The notes under the pieces are model-generated. The model was given only the letters and a program-made list of their open reading frames with translations. It did not search any database and had not been told where the DNA came from. Positions 37,031 to 57,136 of a stretch of 62,866 nt of DNA are shown here, in pieces. The first letter of the stretch is position 1. Every line of letters starts with the position of its first letter. A program made the translations under genes and the position numbers. Source of the DNA: Prevotella sp. (lineage in GTDB: Bacteria > Bacteroidota > Bacteroidia > Bacteroidales > Bacteroidaceae); contig JAGCZA010000028.1 of NCBI GenBank assembly GCA_017960525.1, positions 1 to 62,866 on the forward strand, written 5' to 3'.

Positions 37031-38542
37031 ATGGATTCTTTCAAGGGTAAAGTAGCCGTCGTGACGGGAGGTGCCCAGGGCATCGGACGATGTATTGCCG
37101 ACGAGTTTCTGAAGGCTGGTGCCTATGTCTGTGTCATCGACAAGCAGGAGGGGACTCACTTTGTGGGCGATATATCAGACAAGCAGGTGTTGGAGCGGTT
37201 TGCCCAGGAGATCATCGGGAAGTATGGTCATGTGGACTACCTTATCAACAATGCCCTACCACTAATGAAGGGCATCGACGAATGTAGCTATGAAGAGTTT
37301 CAATTCGCCATGAGCGTGGGAGTCACAGCTCCGTTCTATCTTGCCAAACTCTTTAGTCCGTATTTCGCTGAGGGAGCTGCCATCGTCAACATCTCCTCCT
37401 CGCGCGACCGTATGAGCCAGCCGCAGACAGAGAGCTACACGGCTGCCAAAGGCGGTATTGCCGCACTGACCCACGCTCTGGCTGTCAGCTTTGCAGGCCG
37501 TGTTCGCGTTAATTCTATCTCACCAGGTTGGATAGACACTAACTATACCGTCTATGAAGGCCCCGATGCCACACAGCAACCTGCGGGACGTGTCGGCAAT
37601 CCGATGGACATTGCCAGTATGGTGTTGTTCCTTTGTTCTGATAAGGCAGGTTTCATTACGGGTGAGAACATCTGCATCGATGGTGGCATGACCCACCAGA
37701 TGATCTATCATGGTGATAACGGCTGGAAGTTGGAGGAAAGCCAGTCACAAACACCAGACCCTAATTTCTGGATCTTCCTCTGCTTTGGACAATCGAATAT
37801 GGCAGGCCAGGCTCCCATTGAAAAGCAGGACTTGGCAGTAGGTGAACGTTTTCTGAGTATGGCAACAACCGACGGGGGCGACGGACGCGTACTCGGCACA
37901 TGGCGCAAGGCTGTGCCGCCACTCTGCCGCGCTGATGCCAACCTCAGTCCTGCCGACTGGTTCGGACGCACATTACTCGAAGCTGTGCCTGAGAATGTAC
38001 GCATAGGTATCGTGTCGGTGGCAGTAGAGGGCTGTCCTATTACTTTCTTCGACAAGGACAGGAACGCGCCTCTCATTGCCATGGAAGATCGCGACTGGAT
38101 GAACGATATCTTGGATCAGTATGGACGCGACCCCTACGAGCGACTGCTGAGTATGGCGAAGATTGCTGTCAGGGATGGTGTCATCAAAGGCATCCTGCTG
38201 CATCAGGGCGAAACGGATGCCTACGACAGGGAATGGCAGAAGACTGTGAGGAAAATCTACTGCGACTTGCAACAGGAACTTCAGTTCGACCCGACGGCTG
38301 TCCCCTTGCTCGTCGGGGAGGTGGTGCGTACGGAATATGGCGGCATCTGCGGCTATGCCAATCCCACCATCAACGACATTGCAAACCGCTATCCGAACAC
38401 GTATGTTGTCTCTTCAGAGGGCTGTCTGCCCTGTGATGACTATCTCCATTTCAGTGGCGAGGGCTATAGGCTTCTGGGCCGTCATTATGCACAACGCTAT
38501 CTGGAGGTTACAAATCCACAATTAGCAGAAACTATAAAATAG
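37031..38542 (+). CDS. Fusion of a short-chain dehydrogenase/reductase and a CE6/SASA-type carbohydrate esterase
   Basis: 503 residues. Residues 1-235 are a complete SDR: NAD(P)-binding VTGGAQGIGR (11-20), NNA (73-75), catalytic serine region NISSS (120-124), Y136 and K140 in YTAAKGG, and the ending GGMTHQMIYHG. After a short linker (about 236-242), residues 243-500 are a sialate-O-acetylesterase/CE6-type SGNH domain: GQSNMAG (253-259) with the nucleophile serine, HQGETD (391-396), and DDYLHFSGEGYR (469-480) with the catalytic histidine. There is no signal peptide, so both act in the cytoplasm. Together they could deacetylate an imported sugar and oxidise or reduce it. It is followed 27 bp later by an aldo/keto reductase gene. 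The fusion is unusual. Confidence 0.9.
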   Translation: MDSFKGKVAVVTGGAQGIGRCIADEFLKAGAYVCVIDKQEGTHFVGDISDKQVLERFAQEIIGKYGHVDYLINNALPLMKGIDECSYEEFQFAMSVGVTAPFYLAKLFSPYFAEGAAIVNISSSRDRMSQPQTESYTAAKGGIAALTHALAVSFAGRVRVNSISPGWIDTNYTVYEGPDATQQPAGRVGNPMDIASMVLFLCSDKAGFITGENICIDGGMTHQMIYHGDNGWKLEESQSQTPDPNFWIFLCFGQSNMAGQAPIEKQDLAVGERFLSMATTDGGDGRVLGTWRKAVPPLCRADANLSPADWFGRTLLEAVPENVRIGIVSVAVEGCPITFFDKDRNAPLIAMEDRDWMNDILDQYGRDPYERLLSMAKIAVRDGVIKGILLHQGETDAYDREWQKTVRKIYCDLQQELQFDPTAVPLLVGEVVRTEYGGICGYANPTINDIANRYPNTYVVSSEGCLPCDDYLHFSGEGYRLLGRHYAQRYLEVTNPQLAETIK

Positions 38543-40648: not shown

Positions 40649-41230
40649 TCAATATTTCCAGCCATTCTGCAGGTGCTTCATACTATGCCCTCCCCACTGG
40701 TTGTCGTCAACATAGCGGAAACCGATGGCTGTGTAGAGGGTTTCGGCGGTGGGATTGTCCTTGTCGACCAGTAGTCCTACGTGGGGCAGACCCATGGCAT
40801 TGGCTTTCTCGCGGGTGGCTTTGAGCAGACGGGTGGCAATGCCCTGGTGGCGGTAGTCGGGCAGTACGGCCAAAGAGTCCAGGTAGAGCTCGCCCTGCTG
40901 TGTCTCGTCGGGCATGGCTGAATGGTCCTTGTCGAGGCATTCCCTGGCCTTGTCGATGAAGGCCTGGCGGAGTTCATGCAGCAGGGCTCCGTCGTAGCTG
41001 ACGGCTGCCCCGATGACCTTGTCGGCGTCCATGGCCACCAGGGTGTTGCGGTAGCTGTATTGCGAGTGTTCGCTCTGCACGAGCTGTGTCATCATCTTCC
41101 GGAAGTCCTGGAGGTCATGGCCTTCGCCGCAGAAATGGAGGCAACACTCGTCTGTCATGGCCATCATGATGAGCGCGGCTATTTCCGGTGCCTGTTCTAT
41201 TGTTGCATTCTGAATTGTGGTCATCTTCAT
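40649..41230 (-). CDS. GNAT family N-acetyltransferase
   Basis: 193 residues. The acetyl-CoA binding motif is LAVLPDYRHQGIATRLL (motif A, Q-x-x-G-x-A type), followed by VGLLVDKDNPTAETLYTAIGF (motif B), as in aminoglycoside/polyamine/protein GNATs. The N-terminal part has HFCGEGHDLQDFRKMM and IGAAVSYDGALLHELR. It is the last gene of the eight-gene island operon and overlaps the MATE gene by 4 bp. In context it could acetylate an amine intermediate or protect the producer, but the substrate is unknown. Confidence 0.9.
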   Translation of the reverse strand: MKMTTIQNATIEQAPEIAALIMMAMTDECCLHFCGEGHDLQDFRKMMTQLVQSEHSQYSYRNTLVAMDADKVIGAAVSYDGALLHELRQAFIDKARECLDKDHSAMPDETQQGELYLDSLAVLPDYRHQGIATRLLKATREKANAMGLPHVGLLVDKDNPTAETLYTAIGFRYVDDNQWGGHSMKHLQNGWKY

Positions 41231-42582
41231 GTGTTTTGTTTGGGGTCAAGTTTTCGAAGGCTGCTCAGGAGGAGTAGGAGGGAGACGACGGCTACGAGCA
41301 CGTCGGCAATGGGTTGTGCCACGAACACTGAGGCATCGGGATGGCTGGAGAACAGCCTGGGCAGCAGCCACACCAGCGGCACCAGCAGCAACAGGGTGCG
41401 CGAAAGTCCCAGCCAGAAGGTGACGACGGGTCGGTTCATGGCCTGGAGTGTGCTCTGGCAGGCGAATTGCAGGGTAGAGACGAAGAAGACGCAGAAGGCC
41501 AGGCGTGTCATTGGCACAGCATAGTCTGTCATGTCTCCATCGCCTATGGTCAGCTGGACAATGGGGCGTGTGAAGAGCATCATCAGCAGCCAAACGACCA
41601 GCGACCAGACCAGCGTGGTCTTCATCAGTATCCTGACATTCTCACGGACTCGGTCCCAACGATTGGCACCCAGGTTGTAGCTCGTGACGGACTGCACGCC
41701 AAAGGCCATGCCATAGAAGGGGAAGCGGAAGAAGTTGTAGAGCATGATGACGAGTGCCATGGTGCCTACGCCCACATCGCCGACCATGGCGTAGAGTGTG
41801 CGGTTGTAGACTCCCATCTGCACGGTCTCGGCCAGCATCATCACCATCGGAGTCACTCCAAGGGCCAGGCAAGGTGCAATCAAATCCCACCGCAGGCGTA
41901 GGTGCCGGAGGTGCAGCTGTATGTCTCCAGGCCTCCGCAAGTAGACGATGGCCAGCAGTGCTGCAAAAGCCTCGGCAATGGTGGTAGCCCATGCAGCCCC
42001 CGCCAGTCCCATGTCGAAGCCGAAGATGAGCAGCGGGTCGAGCAGCATGTTGAGTACAATGCCCGAGCCGATCACGATGCCTGCTTCCTTGCTGCGTCCC
42101 TGTGCCAGCAGGAACGGTGCCAGTCCTCCCGAGAGGATGCAGAGGGCGTTGCCGGGGGTGGAGATGCGCAGATAGAGTTCTGACAGTGCCTCTGTCTGGT
42201 CGCTGCCTCCGAAGAGTCTTATCAGCGGAATGCACTGCCACTCTATCACGACGCAGACCAGCACGGACAGCAGCAAGTTGAAGAGGAAGAAACTCCCTAA
42301 GGTCTGTTCTGCCCGCTGGCGGTTGCCTTGTCCTAAATGGTAGCCCACCTGCGGAGCAATGCCTGTACCGGTCAGTTCGGCCAGTGCCATCATCATATAT
42401 ACAATAGGTACACACACAGCCGAGGCCGTGAAAGCCAGCTGTCCGATGTCGGGGATATGTGCTATCCAGATACGGTCGATGACATTGTCCAGCCATATCA
42501 ACAGCTGTTGCAGTATCACGGGCACGGCCATAGACCAGAACAGCCCTCTCAGGGGTTCGTTTTCGAGTCGATTGCCGGACAT
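41227..42582 (-). CDS. MATE family efflux transporter
   Basis: 451 residues with about 12 membrane helices in two similar halves. It begins PLRGLFWSMAVPVILQQLLI and has the MATE-type repeats (LFGGSDQTEALSELYLRI in the first half, FTRPIVQLTIGDGDMTDYAV in the second). MATE proteins export cationic or drug-like molecules in exchange for Na+ or H+. It overlaps the GNAT gene by 4 bp and is 9 bp downstream of a homospermidine-synthase-like gene, so it is part of the island operon and gives it an inner-membrane export route besides the RND pump. Confidence 0.93.
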   Translation of the reverse strand: MSGNRLENEPLRGLFWSMAVPVILQQLLIWLDNVIDRIWIAHIPDIGQLAFTASAVCVPIVYMMMALAELTGTGIAPQVGYHLGQGNRQRAEQTLGSFFLFNLLLSVLVCVVIEWQCIPLIRLFGGSDQTEALSELYLRISTPGNALCILSGGLAPFLLAQGRSKEAGIVIGSGIVLNMLLDPLLIFGFDMGLAGAAWATTIAEAFAALLAIVYLRRPGDIQLHLRHLRLRWDLIAPCLALGVTPMVMMLAETVQMGVYNRTLYAMVGDVGVGTMALVIMLYNFFRFPFYGMAFGVQSVTSYNLGANRWDRVRENVRILMKTTLVWSLVVWLLMMLFTRPIVQLTIGDGDMTDYAVPMTRLAFCVFFVSTLQFACQSTLQAMNRPVVTFWLGLSRTLLLLVPLVWLLPRLFSSHPDASVFVAQPIADVLVAVVSLLLLLSSLRKLDPKQNT

Positions 42583-42591
42583 GGAGTCTTC

Positions 42592-43701
42592 TTAGAAAAA
42601 GCGCATGATGTTCTTTCGGAACTCATCGATGCTGAAAGGCTGCTCCTCTACCTCGAAGGTAAGACCTATCTGCTGGAGCAGGGCATCAATAACATCTGGC
42701 ATGAGTTGCGACACTTCCGTCATGGTGTGGGGATGGTCGGGGCTGACGACATCGAGCAGGCGGTAGGCAATCCATGCTCCCGCGGCTGTCTGCCAGCACA
42801 CGGCATTGCAACCGTAACGCTTCCAGGTGGTTTGGTTGGCCACCACACTCTTCACCCAGTAGAGCCTTTCTTTTGTGTCCCAGAAAAGTATGCCCGCCTG
42901 ATCCTCGCCTTTCAGGCAATGTGGGACGGGGATAGAACGCAACTCTTCGTCGGTGATGTCGGCGCCTTTGTCGAGGCAGTATTGCTGCAATCCTCGTGGG
43001 GCCTGATAGATATTAGCCGTTCCGAGCAGGTTCTCGTCGCTGTTCAGCATGGAGAGCAGTTCCTCATGGGGTACGGGCAGATACTGGCGCACGCCGCCGT
43101 GGTAGGTAAGGCGTATGGTGCCACCTTCGTCATTCAGTTGCTGCGTCACGTCAATGACGTCCTGTCTGTTTGCAAGCACCAAATCTGCGCGGCTACTCTC
43201 ATCGGCATACATGTAGGGTGACCAGGTGCCAAAGACCTCATATTCATCGCTGGCAGAATCGTCGTGTTCCAGTTCGAAGGCATAGTGCGGTCCCTGTGGC
43301 TTGTATTGCTGATAGACGTGCTCGAGGATGCCTGGATTGATGCCAAATCCGAACATGACATTGCTATGCGTAGGCCAGCTCAATATCCGCATCATTTCCT
43401 CTATATAGTCGGGAATCGATTCGACATTATCCATATCTAAGCCGTCCGCGAAGCCAGCCACGTCGACACAGTCAAGGCCGTAGTCTATGCACATCCGGGC
43501 AACCTCTACGCTGTTGGCCACCGAAGTATTGACCACCACGTCGAACTCTTCTTGGTGACGGGGCAGGAACTGAAAGATGTCTTGACCGTCCTTCAGGTCA
43601 CAGGTGGTCAGCGAATAGCTCCCGCCGGGCTCCTGCTCTGCCATGATTTTTTCAAAGGCTTTGGCAATATTACCATAGCCAACTAATAAAATTCGCTTCA
43701 T
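42592..43701 (-). CDS. Homospermidine-synthase/saccharopine-dehydrogenase-like protein, paralogue 1
   Basis: 369 residues. The N-terminal Rossmann fold starts ILLVGYGNIAKAFEKIM (GxGxxA type). FGFGINPGILEHVYQQY corresponds to the NPG segment of homospermidine synthase, and the C-terminal GEDQAGILFWDTKERLYWVK and CNAVCWQTAAGAWIAYRLLD parallel its DxxG...YW and NAT...Q segments. The family uses NAD-dependent oxidation and reduction to move an aminoalkyl group between amines. It is shorter than classical homospermidine synthases (about 450-480), so the product may differ. The downstream MATE gene is 9 bp away, and a close paralogue lies 29 bp upstream. Family assignment is from memory of motif layout, not alignment. 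Confidence 0.72.
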   Translation of the reverse strand: MKRILLVGYGNIAKAFEKIMAEQEPGGSYSLTTCDLKDGQDIFQFLPRHQEEFDVVVNTSVANSVEVARMCIDYGLDCVDVAGFADGLDMDNVESIPDYIEEMMRILSWPTHSNVMFGFGINPGILEHVYQQYKPQGPHYAFELEHDDSASDEYEVFGTWSPYMYADESSRADLVLANRQDVIDVTQQLNDEGGTIRLTYHGGVRQYLPVPHEELLSMLNSDENLLGTANIYQAPRGLQQYCLDKGADITDEELRSIPVPHCLKGEDQAGILFWDTKERLYWVKSVVANQTTWKRYGCNAVCWQTAAGAWIAYRLLDVVSPDHPHTMTEVSQLMPDVIDALLQQIGLTFEVEEQPFSIDEFRKNIMRFF

Positions 43702-43730
43702 AAAGTGACAATAGTTGAAAACATGAGATT

Positions 43731-44834
43731 CTATTTAAAATAGCGCATGATGTTCTTCTTGAACTCTTCGACGTTGAAGGGCTGCTCCTCTACCTGGAAG
43801 GTAAGACCAATCTGGTTGAGCAGGGCATCGATGGCATCTGGCATGAGCTGCGACAGCTCCGTCATGGTGTGGGGATGGTCGGGGCTGACGACATCGAGCA
43901 GCCTGTAGGCTATCCAGGCTCCAGTGGCCGTCTGCCAGCACACAGCATTGCAGCCGTATCGTTTCCAGGTGGTTTGATTTTCCATCACGTTCTTCACCCA
44001 GTACATCCTATCGCGTGTGTCCCAGAACAACATTCCCACATGATCATCGCCTTTCAGGCAGTGTGGCACGGGAATCTTGAGGAACTCCTCAACCGAAAGT
44101 TCAGTGCCATAGTCCAGAAAGTATTGCTGCATGCCTCGTGGGGCCTGAAAGAGATAGGCCGATCCGAGCAGATTCTCGTCGCTGTGCAGCATGGACATCA
44201 GTTCTTCATGAGGTATGGGGAGATACTTGCGTTGCTCGCCGTGATAGGTAAGGTGCATGGCGCCACCATCATCCTTCAGCTGCTGTGTAATGTAATTGAT
44301 GTTGTTTTGGTTTATCACGACTAACTCAGCACGGCAACTCTCCTCGGCATACATGTACGGTGACCAGGTGCCAAAGACCTTATATTCATCACTCACAGCA
44401 TTGTCGTGTTCCAACTCGAAGGCATAGTGTGGGCCTTGTGGTTTGTACTTCTGATAGACGTGTTCGAGAATACCGGGATTGATGCCAAAGCCGCACATGA
44501 TGCGGCTGCGGGTGGGACATTTCAGCAGCGGATCCAAGGCGAACAAGAAGTCCACAGCCGTCGTACCATCACCCATACCTTCATCTACACCCATATCAAT
44601 ATAGTCCAGGCCGTAGTCGATGCACATCTGTGTAACATCACAAGTTTCGGCCTGCGACGTGTTTAATACGAGGTCAAATTCCTTATAATGCTCTGGCAGA
44701 TAACTGAGAATGTCTTGTCCATCTTTCAAGTCACAGGTGGTCAGCGTATAGCTCCCACTCGGTTCCTGCTCTTTCATAATCTGTTCAAAGGCATGGGCGA
44801 TATTGCCATAGCCCGCTAATAAAATTCGTTTCAT
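43731..44834 (-). CDS. Homospermidine-synthase/saccharopine-dehydrogenase-like protein, paralogue 2
   Basis: 367 residues from the ATG at 44834; the alternative start at 44879 would lie deeper inside the upstream gene. It is clearly a tandem duplicate of the next gene: identical or near-identical blocks include CDLKDGQDI, CGFGINPGILEHVY, YKPQGPHYAFELEHD and WKRYGCNAVCWQTATGAWIA. The main difference is a block at about residues 77-112, where this copy reads DMGVDEGMGDGTTAVDFLFA and the other DVAGFADGLDMDNVESIPDY. That region lies next to the expected active site, so the two may act on different amines or as a heteromer. Its start overlaps the end of the condensation-domain gene by 50 bp. Confidence 0.72.
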   Translation of the reverse strand: MKRILLAGYGNIAHAFEQIMKEQEPSGSYTLTTCDLKDGQDILSYLPEHYKEFDLVLNTSQAETCDVTQMCIDYGLDYIDMGVDEGMGDGTTAVDFLFALDPLLKCPTRSRIMCGFGINPGILEHVYQKYKPQGPHYAFELEHDNAVSDEYKVFGTWSPYMYAEESCRAELVVINQNNINYITQQLKDDGGAMHLTYHGEQRKYLPIPHEELMSMLHSDENLLGSAYLFQAPRGMQQYFLDYGTELSVEEFLKIPVPHCLKGDDHVGMLFWDTRDRMYWVKNVMENQTTWKRYGCNAVCWQTATGAWIAYRLLDVVSPDHPHTMTELSQLMPDAIDALLNQIGLTFQVEEQPFNVEEFKKNIMRYFK

Positions 44835-46098
44835 TTCTCTTTTTGTATAATATGTTGAGTGTTTCATTCTGGTCGCCAACGAGCAAGACTGCCATCTGGC
44901 CGGTTATTTCCGACAAGGTGTCAATCTGTTCTTGAGTATATAGGGCACTGCTACAGTCGGTAAACACCTCGTAGAGATCTTCACGACGAGTGATGTAGGT
45001 AGATGAGTGCTCACCTGTGAACGACGGATCTATATGATAGGTGGGCCATAGTTTGCCGTCGATATTGATATATTCTGGGATATTGACAGCAGTATATCCT
45101 ATCTCCGTAGCATCACCTTCGATACATTCGATACCAAGGTCGCGCAGGAGATGATATTCAGGGTAGATGCGGTAGCGCATGGAACAGAAGATCTCTCTGT
45201 GTGTCTGGCTAAGCAGTTCGGCCACGGTCTGACCTGGATCTGTATCGATGATGATAGGCAGACTGGTTAAGTAGTGACCATAGACATGGTCGGTGAGTCG
45301 CCGGTCGCTGCGACCATGATTGACAGTATAAAATACCACGCGCGTCTCACCCGACATATAGGCTAATGCCAGGGCGTAAGCGGCAAAGAAAACTGTGGTA
45401 GGCGTTTGACCTATGCGTTGACAGCCTTCATCAATGATAGTGGCTGACACCATGGGATGCGCGCTGATAGCAGGCCCCATTGGATTGTCCGTCTCACGAC
45501 AATAGTCGGTCAGTTGCAAGCCTTTGAACTTCTTCAAATAGTATTCCTTTGCACGGCAATAGGCCTCACTGTTGTAAGAAGCAATCTCGCGGTAGGTTAT
45601 TTCAGCAGCGATGTCACCCTGCTGGTAGAGGGGGAGGCCCTGCACTGCTTCTTCAAAAGCATTCCAAAGTGCCCTATGAGATATGCCGTCGAAGAAGAGA
45701 TGAAAGCACTCCATAATGACATTGCACTGGGTGTCAGTCTCCACAAGGTAAAGACGAACACAGGCCTCGTTGAAAGCATCAAACGGTTTGGTAAACGTGG
45801 GTTTTGCCGCTTCCCATTCCGCATCACTCATGCGAAGGTAGTGTACGTTGTTGGGCATCTGCCAGTCCTCGCAAATCATGATTTCGTCGCCCTGACGGAC
45901 AAGATGTATATGGAGATAGCGGTGCTCGTCAAGCATCTTCTGCATGGCTCGCGCGAATCTTTGCGCCGATGAGCGTTCAAAAGGCATGCATACGGTAGTA
46001 TTGTGCTGCGTCAGATGCGGATTTTCCATAAATTCATCATAGGCCTCCCACTGTATGGCATTCAATGGGTAAGTAATACTCTCTTTCATATCTTTCAT
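44785..46098 (-). CDS. Free-standing condensation-domain-like acyl/amide synthase
   Basis: 437 residues with the layout of a non-ribosomal peptide synthetase condensation domain. The N-terminal region is PLNAIQWEAYDEFMENPHLT, the active-site motif is FHLFFDG (132-138; HHxxxDG with the second, catalytic histidine H133, and D137 kept). The latch-side motifs are seen in FYTVNHGRSDRRLTDHVYGH and YLTSLPIIIDTDPGQTVAEL. No adenylation or carrier domain is encoded nearby. Free-standing members join an acyl donor to an amine or alcohol. In this operon, a polyamine made by the two dehydrogenase-like enzymes is a plausible acceptor (inference). The start at 46098 follows the RND-fusion gene by 32 bp. 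Confidence 0.78.
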   Translation of the reverse strand: MKDMKESITYPLNAIQWEAYDEFMENPHLTQHNTTVCMPFERSSAQRFARAMQKMLDEHRYLHIHLVRQGDEIMICEDWQMPNNVHYLRMSDAEWEAAKPTFTKPFDAFNEACVRLYLVETDTQCNVIMECFHLFFDGISHRALWNAFEEAVQGLPLYQQGDIAAEITYREIASYNSEAYCRAKEYYLKKFKGLQLTDYCRETDNPMGPAISAHPMVSATIIDEGCQRIGQTPTTVFFAAYALALAYMSGETRVVFYTVNHGRSDRRLTDHVYGHYLTSLPIIIDTDPGQTVAELLSQTHREIFCSMRYRIYPEYHLLRDLGIECIEGDATEIGYTAVNIPEYINIDGKLWPTYHIDPSFTGEHSSTYITRREDLYEVFTDCSSALYTQEQIDTLSEITGQMAVLLVGDQNETLNILYKKRNETNFISGLWQYRPCL

Positions 46099-46130
46099 TA
46101 GTTGTTATATATTATTGTTTGTCAATGATA

Positions 46131-49100
46131 TTATTGTTTGTCCATGCCTCCACCTAAGGCTTTGTAGAGTTGGATGTGTGCGCTCATCATTTCATAGCGG
46201 TGGGTGAGCAGTTGCAATCGGGCTTCCAGCAGTGCCTGACGAGCCAGCAGCACCTGCAGGTAGTTCACGTCCTCGTCATACTGCATACGCAGCTTGGAGG
46301 CATCGGCGATATGCGACAGTTTCTCTACTTGTTGCTCGCTGATGCTGATGGCCCGGCGTGCATACTGTTCGGTAGCCACGATGTCGTTCACCTCTCGTCC
46401 AGCTTCTAATACGGCCTGACGGAAGGCAATCTTGGCGGCCTCCTGCTCTGCCTTGGCGCGCTTCACCTCGGCCCGCAGTCTTCCTCCGGCGAAGAGGGGT
46501 TGCGTCAGCGAGCCTAAGGCACTCATCAATACACCGGCAGGACTGACAATCTCGCCTGCATCGTTCGTCCAGCCGATGCTGCCTGAGAGCGACAGCGAGG
46601 GATAGAGCGCAGCGCGTGCCTCATTGGTGGTATAGAAAGCGGCTTTCAGGGTAGCCTCGGCCTGTCGCACGTCAGGACGGCGTGCCAGGGCGCGTATGCT
46701 CACCGACGGGAGCGTGCTGATGGCGGTACATGATGCATCCAGCGAGTCGCGGTCGATGTGCTGACAGGGGCGTCCCAGTACGGCGCAGAGGGCATTCTCG
46801 GCTTGGCGCATTTGCAGCAGGAGTTCCTCCAGCGTGGCTTCGGCTTCGAGCTTGGCTGCCTCCGACTGTTCCACATCGTCGCTGGTGGCTTCACCCACAC
46901 TCAGCAGCACCTGCTGGGTGGCAATGCTCTCCTCCCAGCTTTTGAGGATGGAGCGGGTGTCGGCTATCTGAGCATCGTACATTTCCAATTGGTAGTAGGC
47001 GGTGGCTACGGTGGCAATCAGTTCCGTGCGTACTGCCTGTTCGTAGGCCATCTGTTCCTCGACGGCGGCAGCAGCGGCGCGTTTCGCATTCTGTGCACGG
47101 CCAAAGACATCGATTTCCCAACTGGCCTCTGCACCGAGGTGATAGCCTGATGAGGTAGCGACGAATTCCTCGTTCTTGAAGCGCGACTCCGTCTTGCTGG
47201 CCGTCAGTCCGATGGCAGGAAATAGCTCGCCCTTGGCACTGCACAGGGTGGCTTTGGCTGCCAGCACTTGCTGATGAGCCGTTTGCAGGTCGCTGTTGTG
47301 GGTCAGTGCCTCGTCGATGAGTGCTGCCAGACGTGGCTCGGTGAAGACCTCATGCCAGTCGGCAGGCAACGTGCCGGCCACACTGTCGGCAGGGTATGAA
47401 CGGGCATCGCTGAGTTGTTCCTTCAGCACGTCGGCGGCCGTGGAATCAGAGTGGTAGGAGGAGTAGATGCCGCAACTCGAGAACAGGCTGACGGCAGCCA
47501 GCAGAACCAGGGCGGCAGGTGCCTTGCGGGGCTTGAGCCGCTCCTGCAGCGACTGGAAGAAGATGAAGAACACTGGCACGAAGAGCAGCAAGGCCAGTGT
47601 GCCCACCAGCATACCGCCCACGACACACAAGCCCAGGGTGACATTACCCATGGCTCCGGCACCCCGCTCGAAGATCATGGGCATCAGACCCACAACGAGC
47701 GTCAGGGCTGTCATCAGAATCGGGCGCAGACGTGCCTTGGAGGCACCGAGGGCTGCTTCCACGATACCCATGCCCTCACGCCTACGCTCGCAGGCATATT
47801 CCGTTATCAGGATTGCCGTCTTGGCAAGAAGACCGATGAGCATGATGATGCCCACCTGCATATAGATGTTGTTCTCCAGCCCTACAGCGTTGATGAACAG
47901 GAAACTGCCGAGCAGTCCAATGGGCACGCTGAGCATGACGGCCATGGGGATGAACAGACTCTCGTAGAGGCAGCAGAGAACGATGAACACGAGCAGCAGG
48001 CTGATGGCAAAGACCCATGCCGTGGACGACGACGTGGAGGCCTCCTCGCGGGCTGTGCCTGTGTACTCATAGCCGTAGCCCTGGGGCAGTGTGGTGCCCG
48101 AGACTTCGCTGACGGCATTGATGACATCGCCGGAGGTATAGCCCTCGGCAGGTGTCAGTTCCACGCTGATGCCCTGGAAGAGGTTGAAACGGTTGATTGA
48201 CTGAAGACCATAGGTTTTCTTCAGCGTAATAAGCTCGGTGATAGGTGTATAAGCGCCATTCTCTGTAACAATCAAGATGTTGTTCAGATCATCTTTGTCC
48301 ATACGCAACGCGGGATCGGACTGCAGCATGACGTGATAAAGCTTTCCGAAACTGTTGAACTGTGAGGCATAGTTACCGCCGATATAGCCGTTGAGCACAC
48401 TAAGAACACTGGCAGGCTCAATGCCATAGCGCTTACACAGCGAGGCATTCACCGTAACCGTGTATTGCGGATAGTTCACCTCGTAGGGTTGATAGACCTC
48501 TTCTATCTCAGGCCGTGCTTCCAGTGCCTTAATGAAGTCGTCGGTCACGCTCTTGAGCTTGGTGACGGGGCCACCGCCAAAGTCCTCTACATACAATTCC
48601 ACACTATTGCTATAGCTATAACCGAAGACAGTGGGCAGCAGGAACACGAACATCGAACCGCTCTTCACCTGATGCGTGGCAGCCTCTATACGCTCGTAAA
48701 TGGAAAATATGTCGTGTCCGTCTTCCTGACGGTCGTCCCAATGCTTCAGGCGCCCCATCACCAGTCCGGTGTTGGGACCGTCGTCACCCAGAATGTTCCA
48801 TCCGGCCACTGAACCTGTGACCAGCACGTCGGGGTCGTTCTCCAGAATTTCCGACATCTCCTTCACCGTCTTTTGTGTCTGTGCCAACGTGGAACCTGAT
48901 GGTGTGGTAATATCGACAAAAACAATACCCGTGTCCTCATCGGGAACCAAGCCCGTGGGGGTGGTAAGGAGCATCCAGGCCAGCAGGACTATGCTGACAG
49001 CTGTCAGCACCCACACAATCCAGCGGCGATGGAAGAGCCATCCCAGCGCACGACTGTACTTGCCCAGCAACGCGCTGAAACCCCTGTTGTAGGCATGGCG

Positions 49101-50636
49101 GAAATGCGTGGACCACGAGGCTGACTGCTGCCCGCTCTCGGCAGAACGAGGTTTCATCAGCACAGCACATAGGGCAGGGCACATCGTCAGGGCACAGAAC
49201 GTGGAGATGGCCACGGACACTGCCATCGTCAGGCCGAACTGACGGTAGTAGGCTCCGCTGAGGCCACCCATGAATGCTGAGGGGATGAACACGCACATGA
49301 AGACGACTGTAGTGGTGATGACGGCGTTGGAGATGCCGTGCATGGCCTGGTAAGTGGCTCGCTCGGAGGTTGTCGTGGGGTCTTCCAGCTTCTCCTGTAC
49401 GGCCTCCACCACCACGATGGCATCGTCGACCACGGTGCCGATGACCAGCACCAGGGCAAAGAGGGTGATGAGATTGAGTGTGAACCCCACGAGATACATG
49501 AAGGCGAAGGTACCCACCAGCGAGACCACGATGCTCACGGAGGGAATGATGGTGGCGCGCCAGTTCTGCAGGAAGAACAGCACCACGAGGACAACGAGCA
49601 GCAGGGCCTCAAAGAGTGTTTTATAGACTGCATTCATCGAGGCATCGAGGAAGTCATTGGTGTCTAAGAGCACCCGGAACTCCAGCCCTGCAGGTAATTG
49701 CGGCTCCAGCTCTGACATGAGCCGGTCTATCTCATGGTTCACCTGCTGGGCGTTGGCTCCCGTGGAGGGGGTGATGATGGCAACGGTGCCATTGTGGGAA
49801 TTGACCCAGCTGTCGCAGGAATAGCTCACCGAGCCCAACTCTACATGGGCTACATCGCTCAGATGCAGGTCGTTATAGCCATTCGTCTTAATGACAATAT
49901 CCTCAAACTCCGGCGCTGTTTCCAAACGGCCGCGATACACCAAAGTATATTGATAGGTACCTTTTGAATCCTCGCCCAGCGTACCGATGGCAGCTTCCAC
50001 GTTCTGCCCTTCCAGTGCATTGACAATATCTTCCGGATTCAGTTGGTGCATTGCCATCATCTTCGGGTCCATCCAGATACGCATGCCATATACATTTCCC
50101 AGCAACTGAACTTTACCTATGCCAGCGATGCGCTGCAGGCGCGGCTGCACGTTGATATTGAAATAGTTGGTGATGAAAGCATTGTCGTAGCGGTTGTCGG
50201 GACACTCTATGGCAATGATGCGCAGCATGCCCTGCTCCTCCTTCTCTACCTTCACACCCAAATTGAGCACTTCTGTGGGCAGGTAGCCTTTGGCTTCTTC
50301 CACACGGTTTTTTACACGTATTTGTGCCAAATCGGGGTCGGTGCCAGGTCGAAAGGTAACGTTGACAGTGGCCATGCCATCGCTGGTCGACGACGAAGTG
50401 ATATACTCCATGCCTTCCACACCGTTGACGGCCTCCTCAAGGGGCGTGACCACACTTTTCATCACAGCCTCGGCACTGGCTCCGGTGTACTCGGTACTGA
50501 TGGTGACTACAGGTGGGGCCACATTCGGGAACTGCTCTACGGGCAGATTGACATACCCCACGATGCCAGCCAGCAGGATGATTACCGAGAGGGCGCAGGC
50601 AAAAATAGGACGACTGATAAAGAAACGACTAATCAT
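46131..50636 (-). CDS. RND efflux permease fused to an outer-membrane factor (AcrB-TolC/NodT fusion)
   Basis: 1501 residues. Residues 1 to about 1040 are a full HAE1-type RND permease: start MISRFFISRPIFACALSVII, GTVVDDAIVVVEAVQEKLED with the proton-relay acidic residues, and TAILITEYACERR in the last membrane region. After LKPRK comes a hydrophobic stretch and a lipobox LFSSC (Cys 1055), exactly like an N-terminal lipoprotein signal. The remaining 447 residues are a complete NodT-type outer-membrane factor (WHEVFTEPRLAALIDEALTH, SWEIDVFGRAQNAKRAA, AALYPSLSLSGSIGWTND, LTQPLFAGGRL). No ATG, GTG or TTG start lies at the junction, so it is one reading frame. The first adaptor gene overlaps its start by 4 bp. 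Confidence 0.93.
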   Translation of the reverse strand: MISRFFISRPIFACALSVIILLAGIVGYVNLPVEQFPNVAPPVVTISTEYTGASAEAVMKSVVTPLEEAVNGVEGMEYITSSSTSDGMATVNVTFRPGTDPDLAQIRVKNRVEEAKGYLPTEVLNLGVKVEKEEQGMLRIIAIECPDNRYDNAFITNYFNINVQPRLQRIAGIGKVQLLGNVYGMRIWMDPKMMAMHQLNPEDIVNALEGQNVEAAIGTLGEDSKGTYQYTLVYRGRLETAPEFEDIVIKTNGYNDLHLSDVAHVELGSVSYSCDSWVNSHNGTVAIITPSTGANAQQVNHEIDRLMSELEPQLPAGLEFRVLLDTNDFLDASMNAVYKTLFEALLLVVLVVLFFLQNWRATIIPSVSIVVSLVGTFAFMYLVGFTLNLITLFALVLVIGTVVDDAIVVVEAVQEKLEDPTTTSERATYQAMHGISNAVITTTVVFMCVFIPSAFMGGLSGAYYRQFGLTMAVSVAISTFCALTMCPALCAVLMKPRSAESGQQSASWSTHFRHAYNRGFSALLGKYSRALGWLFHRRWIVWVLTAVSIVLLAWMLLTTPTGLVPDEDTGIVFVDITTPSGSTLAQTQKTVKEMSEILENDPDVLVTGSVAGWNILGDDGPNTGLVMGRLKHWDDRQEDGHDIFSIYERIEAATHQVKSGSMFVFLLPTVFGYSYSNSVELYVEDFGGGPVTKLKSVTDDFIKALEARPEIEEVYQPYEVNYPQYTVTVNASLCKRYGIEPASVLSVLNGYIGGNYASQFNSFGKLYHVMLQSDPALRMDKDDLNNILIVTENGAYTPITELITLKKTYGLQSINRFNLFQGISVELTPAEGYTSGDVINAVSEVSGTTLPQGYGYEYTGTAREEASTSSSTAWVFAISLLLVFIVLCCLYESLFIPMAVMLSVPIGLLGSFLFINAVGLENNIYMQVGIIMLIGLLAKTAILITEYACERRREGMGIVEAALGASKARLRPILMTALTLVVGLMPMIFERGAGAMGNVTLGLCVVGGMLVGTLALLLFVPVFFIFFQSLQERLKPRKAPAALVLLAAVSLFSSCGIYSSYHSDSTAADVLKEQLSDARSYPADSVAGTLPADWHEVFTEPRLAALIDEALTHNSDLQTAHQQVLAAKATLCSAKGELFPAIGLTASKTESRFKNEEFVATSSGYHLGAEASWEIDVFGRAQNAKRAAAAAVEEQMAYEQAVRTELIATVATAYYQLEMYDAQIADTRSILKSWEESIATQQVLLSVGEATSDDVEQSEAAKLEAEATLEELLLQMRQAENALCAVLGRPCQHIDRDSLDASCTAISTLPSVSIRALARRPDVRQAEATLKAAFYTTNEARAALYPSLSLSGSIGWTNDAGEIVSPAGVLMSALGSLTQPLFAGGRLRAEVKRAKAEQEAAKIAFRQAVLEAGREVNDIVATEQYARRAISISEQQVEKLSHIADASKLRMQYDEDVNYLQVLLARQALLEARLQLLTHRYEMMSAHIQLYKALGGGMDKQ

Positions 50637-51772
50637 GATTGTTCCCCTCCTTTCTTTTCTTTCTTTTCTGTTACCTCTATTCCATCGGTCACGAATCCGG
50701 CTCCCTCGGCAATGATGGAATCGCCAGGTTCCAAGCCAGAGGTCACCACATAGCTCTGTCCATCGTTATAGCGCAGAACTGTTATCTCTGTCGCCAAAGC
50801 CTTACCTTTGACTATTTTGTAGACGATATATTTATTGTCGGTATCAACAGTGGCCTCCTGCGGTATGACAATAACCCCATGCATCACATAGGGGAGCACG
50901 ATATAACCATTGTTGCCGGTGCGGAACATCTCCTTGGGATCACTGAACGATGCCCGCCCGTAGGTAGCACCTACAGCTGGATCCACATTTCCACTGATAG
51001 CATCAATACGCCCTTGTTGAGCCAACTTACTGCCCCAGTTACTGTAGAACGTAATAGGGGGCAACTTGCTAAGAAGTTCGTCGTAAGTACTGCACTCAAA
51101 ATCTTCCAGAAGTTCGGACAGCATCTCCTCCGAGAAACAGGTATAAGCGTATAGTTCATCATTTTTATTTATGATCGTGATTCCATTTTCGCCAAGGGGA
51201 TCAATAAAGTCCCCCACGCGATAGTTTATCATATTGATAACACCATCTACAGGACTGTTGATGGTGGTGTAGCCCAGCTGTGTACGTGCTGATGCCAGCT
51301 GTGCCTCTGCAGCCTCCAACTGCGCGCTGGCTTCCTCCTTGGCATGGCGCGCCCGGCGAATGTCAAATTCGCCAATCATCTGCTGTGCATAGAGCTTCTC
51401 CTTACCCTCTAAATTCAACTGCGCTGTTGAGAGTGCAGTGCGGGCTGTGGCTACTTGGGCCTTAGCGGCATCAACCGCTGCAATGTGGGGCGCCTGGTCG
51501 ATGACGAACAAAGGCTGCCCTTTCTTGACACGAGCACCTTCCTGAACGCATATCTTTGTCAGCCGTCCACTGACAAGTGGGCGAATTTCAATATTATGCT
51601 TACTCTCTAATTTCACAAAGAATTCACGGTTCAGAGTGTAATCCTGCCGCTCCACTCGCAATATGCGGTAACAGTCCTTTACAGGCTGTGCTGCCTCTTC
51701 GTCACAGCCTGCGCAGAGTGCCGACAGGGTTAAAGCTGAAAAAGCGATGATTAGATGTGATACTCGTCGCAT
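50633..51772 (-). CDS. RND periplasmic adaptor lipoprotein (AcrA/MexA-like), copy 1
   Basis: 379 residues with a lipoprotein signal (LSALCAGC). The membrane-fusion protein order is visible: lipoyl half (IEIRPLVSGRLTKICVQEGA), a helical hairpin of Ala/Gln-rich sequence (AKAQVATARTALSTAQLNLE), the second lipoyl half (YTTINSPVDGVINM) and a C-terminal beta domain (GYIVLPYVMHGVIVIPQEAT). It bridges the inner-membrane pump and outer-membrane factor. It overlaps the RND-fusion gene by 4 bp and is preceded by a paralogue 22 bp upstream. The C terminus is Lys/Glu-rich. Confidence 0.93.
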   Translation of the reverse strand: MRRVSHLIIAFSALTLSALCAGCDEEAAQPVKDCYRILRVERQDYTLNREFFVKLESKHNIEIRPLVSGRLTKICVQEGARVKKGQPLFVIDQAPHIAAVDAAKAQVATARTALSTAQLNLEGKEKLYAQQMIGEFDIRRARHAKEEASAQLEAAEAQLASARTQLGYTTINSPVDGVINMINYRVGDFIDPLGENGITIINKNDELYAYTCFSEEMLSELLEDFECSTYDELLSKLPPITFYSNWGSKLAQQGRIDAISGNVDPAVGATYGRASFSDPKEMFRTGNNGYIVLPYVMHGVIVIPQEATVDTDNKYIVYKIVKGKALATEITVLRYNDGQSYVVTSGLEPGDSIIAEGAGFVTDGIEVTEKKEKKGGEQS

Positions 51773-51794
51773 ACAGATAATTGTTTGGTTCTTA

Positions 51795-52886
51795 TTATTT
51801 CGCTTCGGGAGCCACTGTTGTTCCTTCTCTTACCATCCCAACCTTTTCTGAGATGATGACATCACCGTCATTCAGCCCGGCGGTCACTACGTAGTGCTGA
51901 TTATCGTTAGTAGGCAAGACCTTCACCTCTGTACATTTAGCCTTGCCTTCAATGACACGATAGACGAAGTACTTGTCTTGAATGTGGGTGGTAGCATCTT
52001 GTGGTATGACATAAACATCCTTCTTGGTAAATGGCAGATAGATATATCCGTTACTGCCGTTGCGGAATAACTCTGACGGATTGTAGAAAGATGCCCTGAT
52101 AGTGACTGCTCCCGTCGAAGCATCTGCTCCACCGCTGATGGCATCGAAACTTCCCTTCTGTGGAAGTTCTTCGCCCCAGATAGTACAGAGCGTAACGGCT
52201 GGCATCTTACTTATCAGTTCGTTGGTAGTACAACAACCATACTCCTTCAATAAGTCATCAAGCAATTTTCCTGAAAGACTGGTATAGGCATAAATATAGT
52301 TGTTGGCAGATATGTTGGCTATGGGTATCGAAGGGTCAACCAATTCGCCTGCTCGGAAATCAATAATACTCATTGTTCCGTTGACGGGGCTGGTGATGGT
52401 GGTATAGTTCAAGTTGGTGCGCGCTGTTGCCAATTCTGCTTCTGCAGCCTTGAGCTGTGCTGCCGCTTCCTCTTGGGTATGACGTGCCCGGCGCAAGTCA
52501 AACTCTCCCACCATCTGATTCGCATAGAGTTGCTCCTTTCCCTCCATGTTCAACTGTGCAGTGGATAGCGTGGCACGAGCAGTGGCTACCTGAGCCTTGG
52601 CAGCGTTTACGGCAGCAATATAGGGAGCTTGGTCAATGATAAATAGTGGCTCGCCTTTCTTCACAGCCCCACCTTCTCTAACGCATATCTTTTTCAGCGT
52701 TCCACCAATAACCGGACGTACATCTATTCTCTGCTGACTCTCAATCTTGGCCATGAATCGGCGTTCTAATGTGTAGTCCTGTTTTTCCACACGCAGCGTC
52801 TTATAAGTGTCGCTTGCTGGACTGGGAGCCGTTTCTCTGCAGCCGACAAGCACCACCAGCAATAAGCCCCATAGGATATGTTTCAT
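51795..52886 (-). CDS. RND periplasmic adaptor lipoprotein (AcrA/MexA-like), copy 2
   Basis: 363 residues with a lipoprotein signal (LWGLLLVVLVGC). It parallels the next gene domain by domain (IDVRPVIGGTLKKICVREGG, YTTITSPVNGTMSI, GYIYLPFTKKDVYVIPQDAT) but differs at many positions, so the pair is an old tandem duplication. It is the first gene of the eight-gene operon, 62 nt from a -7 box. Two adaptors for one pump could form a mixed ring or provide two outlets. Confidence 0.93.
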   Translation of the reverse strand: MKHILWGLLLVVLVGCRETAPSPASDTYKTLRVEKQDYTLERRFMAKIESQQRIDVRPVIGGTLKKICVREGGAVKKGEPLFIIDQAPYIAAVNAAKAQVATARATLSTAQLNMEGKEQLYANQMVGEFDLRRARHTQEEAAAQLKAAEAELATARTNLNYTTITSPVNGTMSIIDFRAGELVDPSIPIANISANNYIYAYTSLSGKLLDDLLKEYGCCTTNELISKMPAVTLCTIWGEELPQKGSFDAISGGADASTGAVTIRASFYNPSELFRNGSNGYIYLPFTKKDVYVIPQDATTHIQDKYFVYRVIEGKAKCTEVKVLPTNDNQHYVVTAGLNDGDVIISEKVGMVREGTTVAPEAK

Positions 52887-53268: not shown

Positions 53269-53292
53269 GGATCTGTCCAAACGGACAGATCC
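53269..53292 (-). terminator. Intrinsic terminator at the mid-island boundary
   Basis: GGATCTGTCC/GGACAGATCC is a perfect 10-bp stem with the loop AAAC; on the minus strand it is followed by six T (53263-53268). It ends transcripts arriving from 53.4-54.1 kb. Confidence 0.8.
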
Positions 53293-55651: not shown

Positions 55652-57136
55652 CTATTTAATCATTCTGCTATAATCTTGTGACTGAACTTTGTCTTTATTC
55701 TCTATTCGTATTTGAACCATTGTTCTTGATGGTATTGTCTCTGGTATCATCGACATTAACTTGTCAATTACCTCTTCTACATTATTAAATCCAATGTCTT
55801 CAACGGTCGCTACGACCTTACCTCTGAAATACATCGTACCCTTTATAAGTTGTTTGAAAGAAAACCTTTCAAAAGGTTCTTCCTCTTCTTTCTGTTGTAT
55901 GGTATTCTTTGATTTGTCGTCTGTAAAGAAGATTTTCTCTACGACTTTTTCATTCAATACCCAAGCTGGTGTGAAGTCTATTTTCACATAGGTACGTGCA
56001 AGTTTCGTGTGATGTGAATGGTTAAGGCCGAAATCAACTTCTGACAGTGAGGCCCCGCATTCATTCTGTGCAACAGTCGCCCAGGTATGCCGGAAGGTAT
56101 ATGCACTATATCCCTTCCCATGTTCAATTCCGAGAACCTTCTCGCAAATTTGACGAATACCAATATTCACGTTAGCATTAAAACTATCATATGATGATAG
56201 TCTTTTGTGAAAGTTGAAAAGGTAGGGCGAGTCTGAATCATCAAGATATTTATCAATAATCGGTTGCAAAATACCTGGTACTCTTATTTCAAAATAAGCA
56301 TTATCACTTCTTGCAGCCCTCGTTTTCCTTCGTTCATAACATATTATTCCATTAGAATACTTTTTCTTTTCAAGAAAGAATATATCAACGGTGTTGATAC
56401 CAGCGAGACACAGTACCATCATGGCTACGTCTCTTCCAAGTTCTGATAACGGATATTTCCTGTCGCTCTCAGGTAGCTGTGCTGCGAAGAATGCCCGGCA
56501 CTCTTCCATCGTTATGGCCCTTTTCTGTGGGGTGTCAGATTTTGGTATTTTTACCTTTGCCCACGGATTCGTAGTAATTCTTATTAGTCCAGTATCATAA
56601 TCATTAAACTCAATCAGTGCTTGCTTAAAGATTTGACGTACACAGACAGGGTATTGCTCCTTTGCTCTGGCTGTGTTTGATAATGAACTTATCCAGCTAT
56701 TGATAAAACTTGATGTCAAGTGAGAGAACATCATTTTATTAGTACCGGCAAAGCGTTCCAAATGTTGATATGCTAATTCATAGGTTCGTGCGTTACGCGC
56801 ATGTCCCTCTCTTATCATTTTTGCCTGATACTGGCGGGCATAATCTGAGAAGCACACATCAGATGTTCCTTGTTTTAAGAATCGTACTACTTCTTGTACA
56901 GTCCATGAACTGGTATCAACCTTATTCAATCGATCAACATAATCTGCAACAAGTGTATCCAGTGACTTTCTTACGAAGGGGTCTTTGACTTCTTTTGTAC
57001 TTTTGACAATACCTTTATTGTCAACCATCTTATCAGTTTTTATAAATAAACTATCTCTATGATGGATGACTCTGATATAGACGGGCCAGTAGCCGTCTGC
57101 TCTTTGTTTTTGTACCGTAATTCTAAATGTGGCCAT
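55652..57136 (-). CDS. Tyrosine site-specific recombinase (integrase) of the island
   Basis: 494 residues. The N-terminal arm-binding domain (MATFRITVQKQRADGYWPVY) and SAM-like core-binding domain (about 90-190) precede the catalytic domain. Visible active-site residues are K271 in RRKT, R349 and H350 in YTFRHTWAT, H373 in LNHSHH and the nucleophile Y383 in ARTYVKID. The first catalytic arginine appears to be replaced by N248 (AGINTVD), as in some Bacteroides element integrases, and the HxxR histidine by Tyr. After Y383 an extra 110-residue tail follows, acidic then helical, of unknown role. The gene starts beside a phased repeat array and the ppdK 3' end, as expected for an enzyme that integrates there. 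Confidence 0.9.
   Translation of the reverse strand: MATFRITVQKQRADGYWPVYIRVIHHRDSLFIKTDKMVDNKGIVKSTKEVKDPFVRKSLDTLVADYVDRLNKVDTSSWTVQEVVRFLKQGTSDVCFSDYARQYQAKMIREGHARNARTYELAYQHLERFAGTNKMMFSHLTSSFINSWISSLSNTARAKEQYPVCVRQIFKQALIEFNDYDTGLIRITTNPWAKVKIPKSDTPQKRAITMEECRAFFAAQLPESDRKYPLSELGRDVAMMVLCLAGINTVDIFFLEKKKYSNGIICYERRKTRAARSDNAYFEIRVPGILQPIIDKYLDDSDSPYLFNFHKRLSSYDSFNANVNIGIRQICEKVLGIEHGKGYSAYTFRHTWATVAQNECGASLSEVDFGLNHSHHTKLARTYVKIDFTPAWVLNEKVVEKIFFTDDKSKNTIQQKEEEEPFERFSFKQLIKGTMYFRGKVVATVEDIGFNNVEEVIDKLMSMIPETIPSRTMVQIRIENKDKVQSQDYSRMIK

Follow-up and report, generated by a model that had tools for sequence, protein, structure and literature searches.

What would a gut bacterium make with an operon that sets two homospermidine-synthase-like dehydrogenases beside a lone nonribosomal condensation domain and two kinds of exporter? 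The question is posed by eight genes at positions 40649-52886 of a 62,866-nucleotide Prevotella contig (JAGCZA010000028.1, assembly GCA_017960525.1; "the window" is this whole stretch). A preliminary description had counted eight genes here, all on the minus strand, and the count holds: the open reading frames (ORFs) are closely packed, neighbours being no more than 32 nt apart or overlapping slightly. Our answer is that they form a genuine, lineage-restricted biosynthesis-export locus, a variant of the free-standing condensation-domain (C) amide synthases with an unusual dehydrogenase pair (HSS1 and HSS2) and a recurring dedicated pump. Direct support comes from gene content, the fold class and conserved catalytic residues of the enzymes, the co-inheritance of C, dehydrogenase and MATE genes, the linkage of C to a fused pump gene, and purifying selection in seven of the eight genes (dN/dS 0.07-0.21 against the related locus L014, with 0.07 for HSS1; GNAT was saturated in this comparison and left unscored).

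The C protein matches PF00668 at 94.2 bits (cut-off 30.6), its sole Pfam match above cut-off, and is a single C domain without adenylation or thiolation domain. As first described, it is free-standing and carries the motif FHLFFDG with the second, catalytic His; this His of the xHxxxDG motif is kept in all ten dehydrogenase-linked C proteins, the window's included. A ten-sequence C profile searched against the PDB matched condensation domains of nonribosomal peptide synthetases (NRPS), best TycC (2jgp, 2.5e-17), and VibH did not appear among its matches up to E=1. A midpoint-rooted tree, in which one branch is very long, unites the free-standing C proteins in a single 15-row clade (95/96) and places four NRPS C domains and the second C domain of locus L017 outside it; the frame L020:572-1267, an AraC-type regulator and not a C protein, was excluded from the alignment. 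The predicted structure of the C protein was poor (mean pLDDT 60.7, pTM 0.48) and was left unused. Pfam finds no adenylation or carrier domain in the eight operon proteins, in agreement with the preliminary description, and the C protein is the sole PF00668 match in the whole assembly, which is 94.43% complete, so that a distant partner is possible. Free-standing C proteins can acylate free amines, since VibH and SchH (PMC7962358) and OaaC (PMC13142362) do so in the available portions of those reports.

HSS1 and HSS2 are 70% identical to each other. Their earlier designation as homospermidine synthase (HSS)-like enzymes stands as regards fold and most of the active site; it finds no sequence-family match, and carboxyspermidine dehydrogenase (CASDH) is equally close by fold. 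Both reach Pfam Sacchrp_dh_NADP only sub-threshold (18.1 and 15.0 bits, cut-off 25.1), neither they nor three relatives match any NCBIfam model at E<=0.1 (NF043000 included), and a profile search of the PDB with the dehydrogenase family returned no HSS at E<=10. The label "homospermidine-synthase-like" thus does not assign the pair to a family; its basis is fold and active-site residues. Rather than an unrelated family, a possibility raised at the outset, the predicted dehydrogenase model shares the saccharopine-dehydrogenase/HSS fold, with HSS and CASDH structures tied by VIA-align. In BvHSS numbering, Asn162, Trp229, Glu237, His296 and Glu298 are conserved in all 14 homologues in an E-INS-i alignment, and Asn162, Trp229 and Glu237 are again kept with L-INS-i; an H211-E212-E213 run and E167 are also invariant in all 14. 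By predicted fold the pair thus belongs with HSS and CASDH, and most of its active site is of the HSS type. The host genome holds a separate CASDH homologue, and a polyamine route of its own appears to be present.

The dehydrogenase family is narrow, with eleven public contig loci and none beyond the taxonomic family in the samples searched. Counting the window's own genome each time, it was found in 2/150 genomes of the genus and 3/301 of the family, and samples of the order (393 genomes) and phylum (395) were matched by the own genome alone. The family count had stood at 4/301; the relative reported in G153 is CASDH-like (414 bits to NF043000, the score also of the L013 relative and below that model's cut-off of 800) and was dropped from the homologues. 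HSS1 had no match in 72,556 plasmid records and none of 27 pattern matches in viral contigs encodes a relative; carriage by virus or plasmid was set aside on these searches. Three of the loci are labelled as from goat, red deer or roe deer, and eight bear isolate codes RUG, SIG or RUI, which we take to be ruminant-gut sets; the nearest relatives of this bacterium appear to live in ruminant guts.

Across these loci C, dehydrogenase and MATE genes travel together, and do so in other genomes. A C gene lies in the cluster at nine of the eleven, directly 5' of the dehydrogenase in eight; at L017 an adenylation-carrier-condensation protein and another MATE lie between the two. MATE is found at seven loci, six times like the window's (57-87% identity) and once distant (L017, 21%); L016 and L020 end too early to judge, and L018 has none. 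The second dehydrogenase (4/11; the contig end cuts the L016 copy and the L018 copy is broken), GNAT (4/11, partial in L018) and the adaptors (5/11; L017 begins inside the RND gene) are less frequent. RND and HSS2 frames are broken in L018, and RND frames also in L016 and L017, perhaps as an assembly artefact. Over 270 residues, the HSS2 part at L016:10131-10942 shares 99.6% identity with that of the window, with adjoining RND, C and HSS1 at 86-93%, a pattern for which recombination or gene conversion is possible. Acyl_transf_3 proteins directly follow the last dehydrogenase gene at L015:10132-11289 and L017:9735-10742 and are 81% identical over 326 residues. The adenylation-carrier-condensation protein of L017 (L017:4143-7238, between the C gene and the distant MATE) is complete, with 1031 aa, a GGDS carrier motif and LHPIADG. 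Its adenylation pocket, judged by eye at the GrsA positions, is presumably hydrophobic with no acidic selector and probably not specific for Lys or Orn, and serves as a lead only.

The tripartite RND system with two adaptors that the preliminary description had reported is complete. Its permease and outer-membrane factor (OMF) proved to be one gene (PF00873 at residues 2-1027, 2.9e-289; TIGR01845 at residues 1048-1497, above its cut-off), so that the system comprises three genes. Searches of the 301 family genomes, in most of which at most five candidates (C profile) or seven (junction) per genome were scored, found C-profile matches in at least 56, many in long multi-domain frames. Matches above 400 bits occurred in six genomes (G000, G159, G419, G299, G231 and G302), the G299 locus (L037) being a 3-kb contig that is uninformative on neighbourhood. 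L055 (G419) has no dehydrogenase and reads adaptor, adaptor, RND-OMF, double C, LPG_synthase_C-type protein and the beginning of a MATE-like frame; in the double C protein (L055:1525-4137, 870 aa) HRLFFDY replaces the catalytic motif in the first half and the second half is intact. L056 (G231) and L057 (G302), again without dehydrogenase, carry C, opposite-strand DUF6056 genes, one adaptor and RND-OMF. DUF6056 proteins lie in or beside lone-C/RND clusters at L056:7617-9164, L057:1923-3479 and 4806-6395, and L022:6331-7782, and the genes of L056 and L057 overlap the C ends on the opposite strand.

Among the matches listed, an unbroken full permease/OMF junction at 49% identity or more occurs in G000 (100%), G419 (78%), G302 (55%) and G231 (49%). 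The next 15 listed junction-spanning matches, 36-47% identical, all contain a stop, as two separate genes do, and farther unbroken fusions (~31%) exist lower among the listed matches. A free-standing C lies in the same cluster in all four genomes with this close unbroken fusion among the matches listed. The converse fails, as G159 has C-HSS-MATE without a pump in the flanks examined. The C-pump linkage is well supported, and is stronger than the preliminary description could know because it is kept where the dehydrogenase is absent.

We regard as an evenly balanced proposition that the operon makes and exports an acylated secondary amine, through HSS-type coupling, acylation by C in the manner of VibH or OaaC, and MATE/RND export. 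With NAD(H), HSS1 and HSS2 would turn one amine, putrescine most likely, into an aldehyde or imine by oxidation, couple this to a second amine and then reduce the resulting Schiff base to homospermidine or a close analogue. The C protein would then form an amide between an amine of this product and an activated acyl group (acyl-ACP, where ACP is acyl carrier protein, or acyl-CoA), a donor that we place in central metabolism because the operon lacks an adenylation domain. GNAT may acetylate a remaining amine. Export would take two stages, by MATE across the inner membrane and by the adaptors and RND-OMF fusion across the outer one. Of the accounts that give every part a role, this is the simplest. 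From the genes we infer the substrates, the sequence of reactions, the product, the acyl donor and the pump's export of the C product; the acylated secondary amine is the firmer part, and homospermidine itself is a guess. More tentatively still, the locus may belong to a modular, undescribed family in gut Bacteroidales, mostly of ruminants, in which a lone C with its own RND-OMF exporter takes swappable amine-building cassettes to give secreted acyl-amines, with no adenylation domain in most clusters. The cassettes would be the neofunctionalised HSS-type pair here, the double C with an LPG-synthase-like transferase in L055 and the extra NRPS module in L017.

A number of results weigh against acylation of an HSS-type product. 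The top Foldseek matches are CASDH-type structures (4rl6, 8h52, 4ina and 8deb, at ~1e-12), the first HSS ranking 17th at 9.8e-8, and sequence similarity to HSS does not rise above noise (E 0.015 as sole target, 0.2 bits). The His296/Glu298 match depends on alignment mode and is lost with L-INS-i; the column of Glu210, in the inner amine site of HSS, holds Phe in 14/14 homologues, an invariant Glu adjoining; and the ionic-slide Glu117 is a gap in three HSS2-type rows and Asp or Glu in 11/14. Nor is the pump constant: an RND gene was found at 6/11 loci in the DNA examined, and none in the examined flanks of C-HSS-MATE in L019, L021 and L024 (L019 and L024 being the loci of G159 and G041). The L020 dehydrogenase has no C in the 2 kb upstream examined, and L023:8956-10376 (G291), where a truncated dehydrogenase adjoins GNAT and both C and MATE are missing, has probably decayed. 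OaaC, in the available part of PMC13142362, uses its own ACP and adenylating enzyme and formed no product from oleoyl-CoA. Such partners were not found in the operon, and in the whole assembly no amino-acid adenylation domain (TIGR01733) rose above cut-off (best 162.9 of 317.4 bits), carriers elsewhere not having been searched for; the donor here must therefore be housekeeping acyl-ACP or be encoded elsewhere. Finally, a His-Glu-Glu run with a preceding active-site Glu is the catalytic signature of CASDH in the portion of PMC10413350 available, so that the enzyme could use an amino-acid semialdehyde; HSS and CASDH being inseparable by fold score, "homospermidine" can only be proposed.

That last point opens the strongest alternative, in which the core would be the C protein and the pump, with CASDH-like dehydrogenases coupling a diamine to an amino-acid semialdehyde (e.g. 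aspartate semialdehyde) or some other aldehyde, and C acylating that amino-acid-like amine. We think this unlikely, if well worth keeping in view: Asn and Trp stand at HSS positions 162 and 229, where CASDH (8deb) has Asp and Phe, and the operon has no decarboxylase.

The export genes invite a different account, that of detoxification, in which HSS-like coupling, conjugation, GNAT acetylation and two efflux routes would act against surrounding amines and no natural product would be secreted. The GNAT and MATE assignments were both borne out, and GNAT, MATE and RND together make a usual resistance kit; GNAT also matches a number of acetyltransferase models weakly and below cut-off, one of them spermidine N1-acetyltransferase (E 0.045). 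C domains and HSS-type enzymes are not known as parts of detoxification systems, the L017 cluster holds a complete adenylation-carrier-condensation protein, and a window-like GNAT is present in just 4/11 relatives, all of which make the account distinctly improbable. Slightly less probable again is an envelope lipid, an acyl-amine made by C, flipped by the MATE-family protein, placed in or over the outer membrane by RND and decorated in relatives by the Acyl_transf_3 (L015, L017) or DUF6056 (L022, L056, L057) proteins in or beside the clusters. In its favour, the MATE scores 27.5 bits with the MurJ flippase model, barely over the cut-off of 27.4; against it, the permease passes the efflux model TIGR00915 (957.8 bits, cut-off 940.35) as against just 52.5 bits to the hopanoid-type HpnN. 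A metallophore or opine reading was dropped, there being no receptor gene among the eight.

Features of the operon and its upstream boundary (positions in the window)
Feature	Position	Strand	Evidence
RND periplasmic adaptor 1, 363 aa	51795..52886	-	TIGR01730 224.9 bits, cut-off 94.9
RND periplasmic adaptor 2, 379 aa	50633..51772	-	TIGR01730 221.8 bits, cut-off 94.9
RND permease fused to NodT-type outer-membrane factor, 1501 aa	46131..50636	-	PF00873 + TIGR01845
Free-standing condensation-domain (C) protein, 437 aa, FHLFFDG	44785..46098	-	PF00668 1e-26
HSS1: saccharopine-dehydrogenase fold (predicted), mostly HSS-type active site, 367 aa	43731..44834	-	fold, catalytic residues
HSS2: tandem paralogue of HSS1, 369 aa	42592..43701	-	
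MATE transporter, 451 aa	41227..42582	-	PF01554 1.4e-40; TIGR00797 170.2 bits, cut-off 147.4
GNAT N-acetyltransferase, 193 aa	40649..41230	-	PF00583 1e-12
Hairpin then T-run on the minus strand, between operon and upstream gene	53269..53292	-	inverted repeat listed on the + strand; T-run read on the minus strand

The hairpin in the table is likely the terminator of the upstream gene and the operon boundary. The start codon of HSS1 is the ATG near 44834 and not the TTG that opens the 382-aa ORF, and the C gene 3' end overlaps this start by ~50 nt; the overlap is 4 to 32 nt in relatives with C directly 5' of the dehydrogenase. These overlaps suggest coupled translation of C and HSS1. The single promoter claimed for all eight genes did not emerge: no match to the full pattern TTTG-N16-22-TAnnTTTG, a Bacteroidetes promoter pattern, lies upstream of the operon. 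Across the whole window the pattern occurs 11 times against 1.05 expected, with none upstream of this operon. A Phage_int_SAM_5 recombinase-like protein is encoded at 55652-57136, ~2.8 kb upstream, and the operon possibly lies in an island. On the other side, at 37031-38542, a short-chain dehydrogenase and a SASA-type acetylesterase are fused in a single frame.

If the proposed acylation of a coupled amine is right, natural-product biosynthesis gains both a dedicated HSS-type enzyme and a C-domain system whose acyl donor is supplied by central metabolism, and these gut bacteria would have a secreted amine conjugate, a possible signal, antimicrobial or membrane-active agent. The recurring pairing of a fused RND-OMF with a lone C gives genome mining a handle on loci without adenylation domains. 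The choice of amine or semialdehyde substrate becomes testable through a dehydrogenase family that lies between HSS and CASDH. Our literature searches found no paper joining homospermidine synthase with a nonribosomal condensation domain, none on a Prevotella N-acyl polyamine made via a condensation domain and none on a fused RND/outer-membrane factor in Bacteroidetes; the papers listed on homospermidine with Prevotella, or with biosynthetic gene clusters and efflux, do not concern such a cluster by title and opening of the abstract. In the available part of a rumen survey, 934 of 5,346 NRPS clusters fell in Bacteroidaceae (PMC8241843), and since rumen genomes carry so many, loci of this family may sit unnoticed in surveys.

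The nearest functional parallels are free-standing C proteins that acylate amines. In the gut fatty acid amide (FAA) system of Coprococcus eutactus, the lone C domain OaaC joins an acyl chain to a small amine; such systems usually include an ACP and an adenylation enzyme that is itself free-standing, of which this operon has neither, and the available part of that report names no dehydrogenase or pump, unlike the operon described here (PMC13142362). VibH, SchH and PhbG of the vibriobactin, serratiochelin and photobactin pathways acylate a free polyamine, again as far as the available text goes (PMC7962358), and like them the operon's C protein retains the second His of HHxxxDG. Unlike these proteins, which use carrier-presented dihydroxybenzoate (DHB), it stands in an operon with no adenylation or carrier gene and with its own dehydrogenase pair and pumps. 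With CASDH (8deb, NF043000) the dehydrogenases share the predicted fold, the His-Glu-Glu run and the preceding Glu, and differ in having Asn/Trp in place of Asp/Phe and no NCBIfam match. With bacterial HSS (4plp, 6y87) they share the predicted fold and Asn162, Trp229, Glu237, His296 and Glu298, the last two in one of two alignments. Unlike HSS, they are ~100 residues shorter, 12-18% identical in structural alignments and unaligned at Glu210, and they occur as tandem copies clustered with a C domain and pumps.

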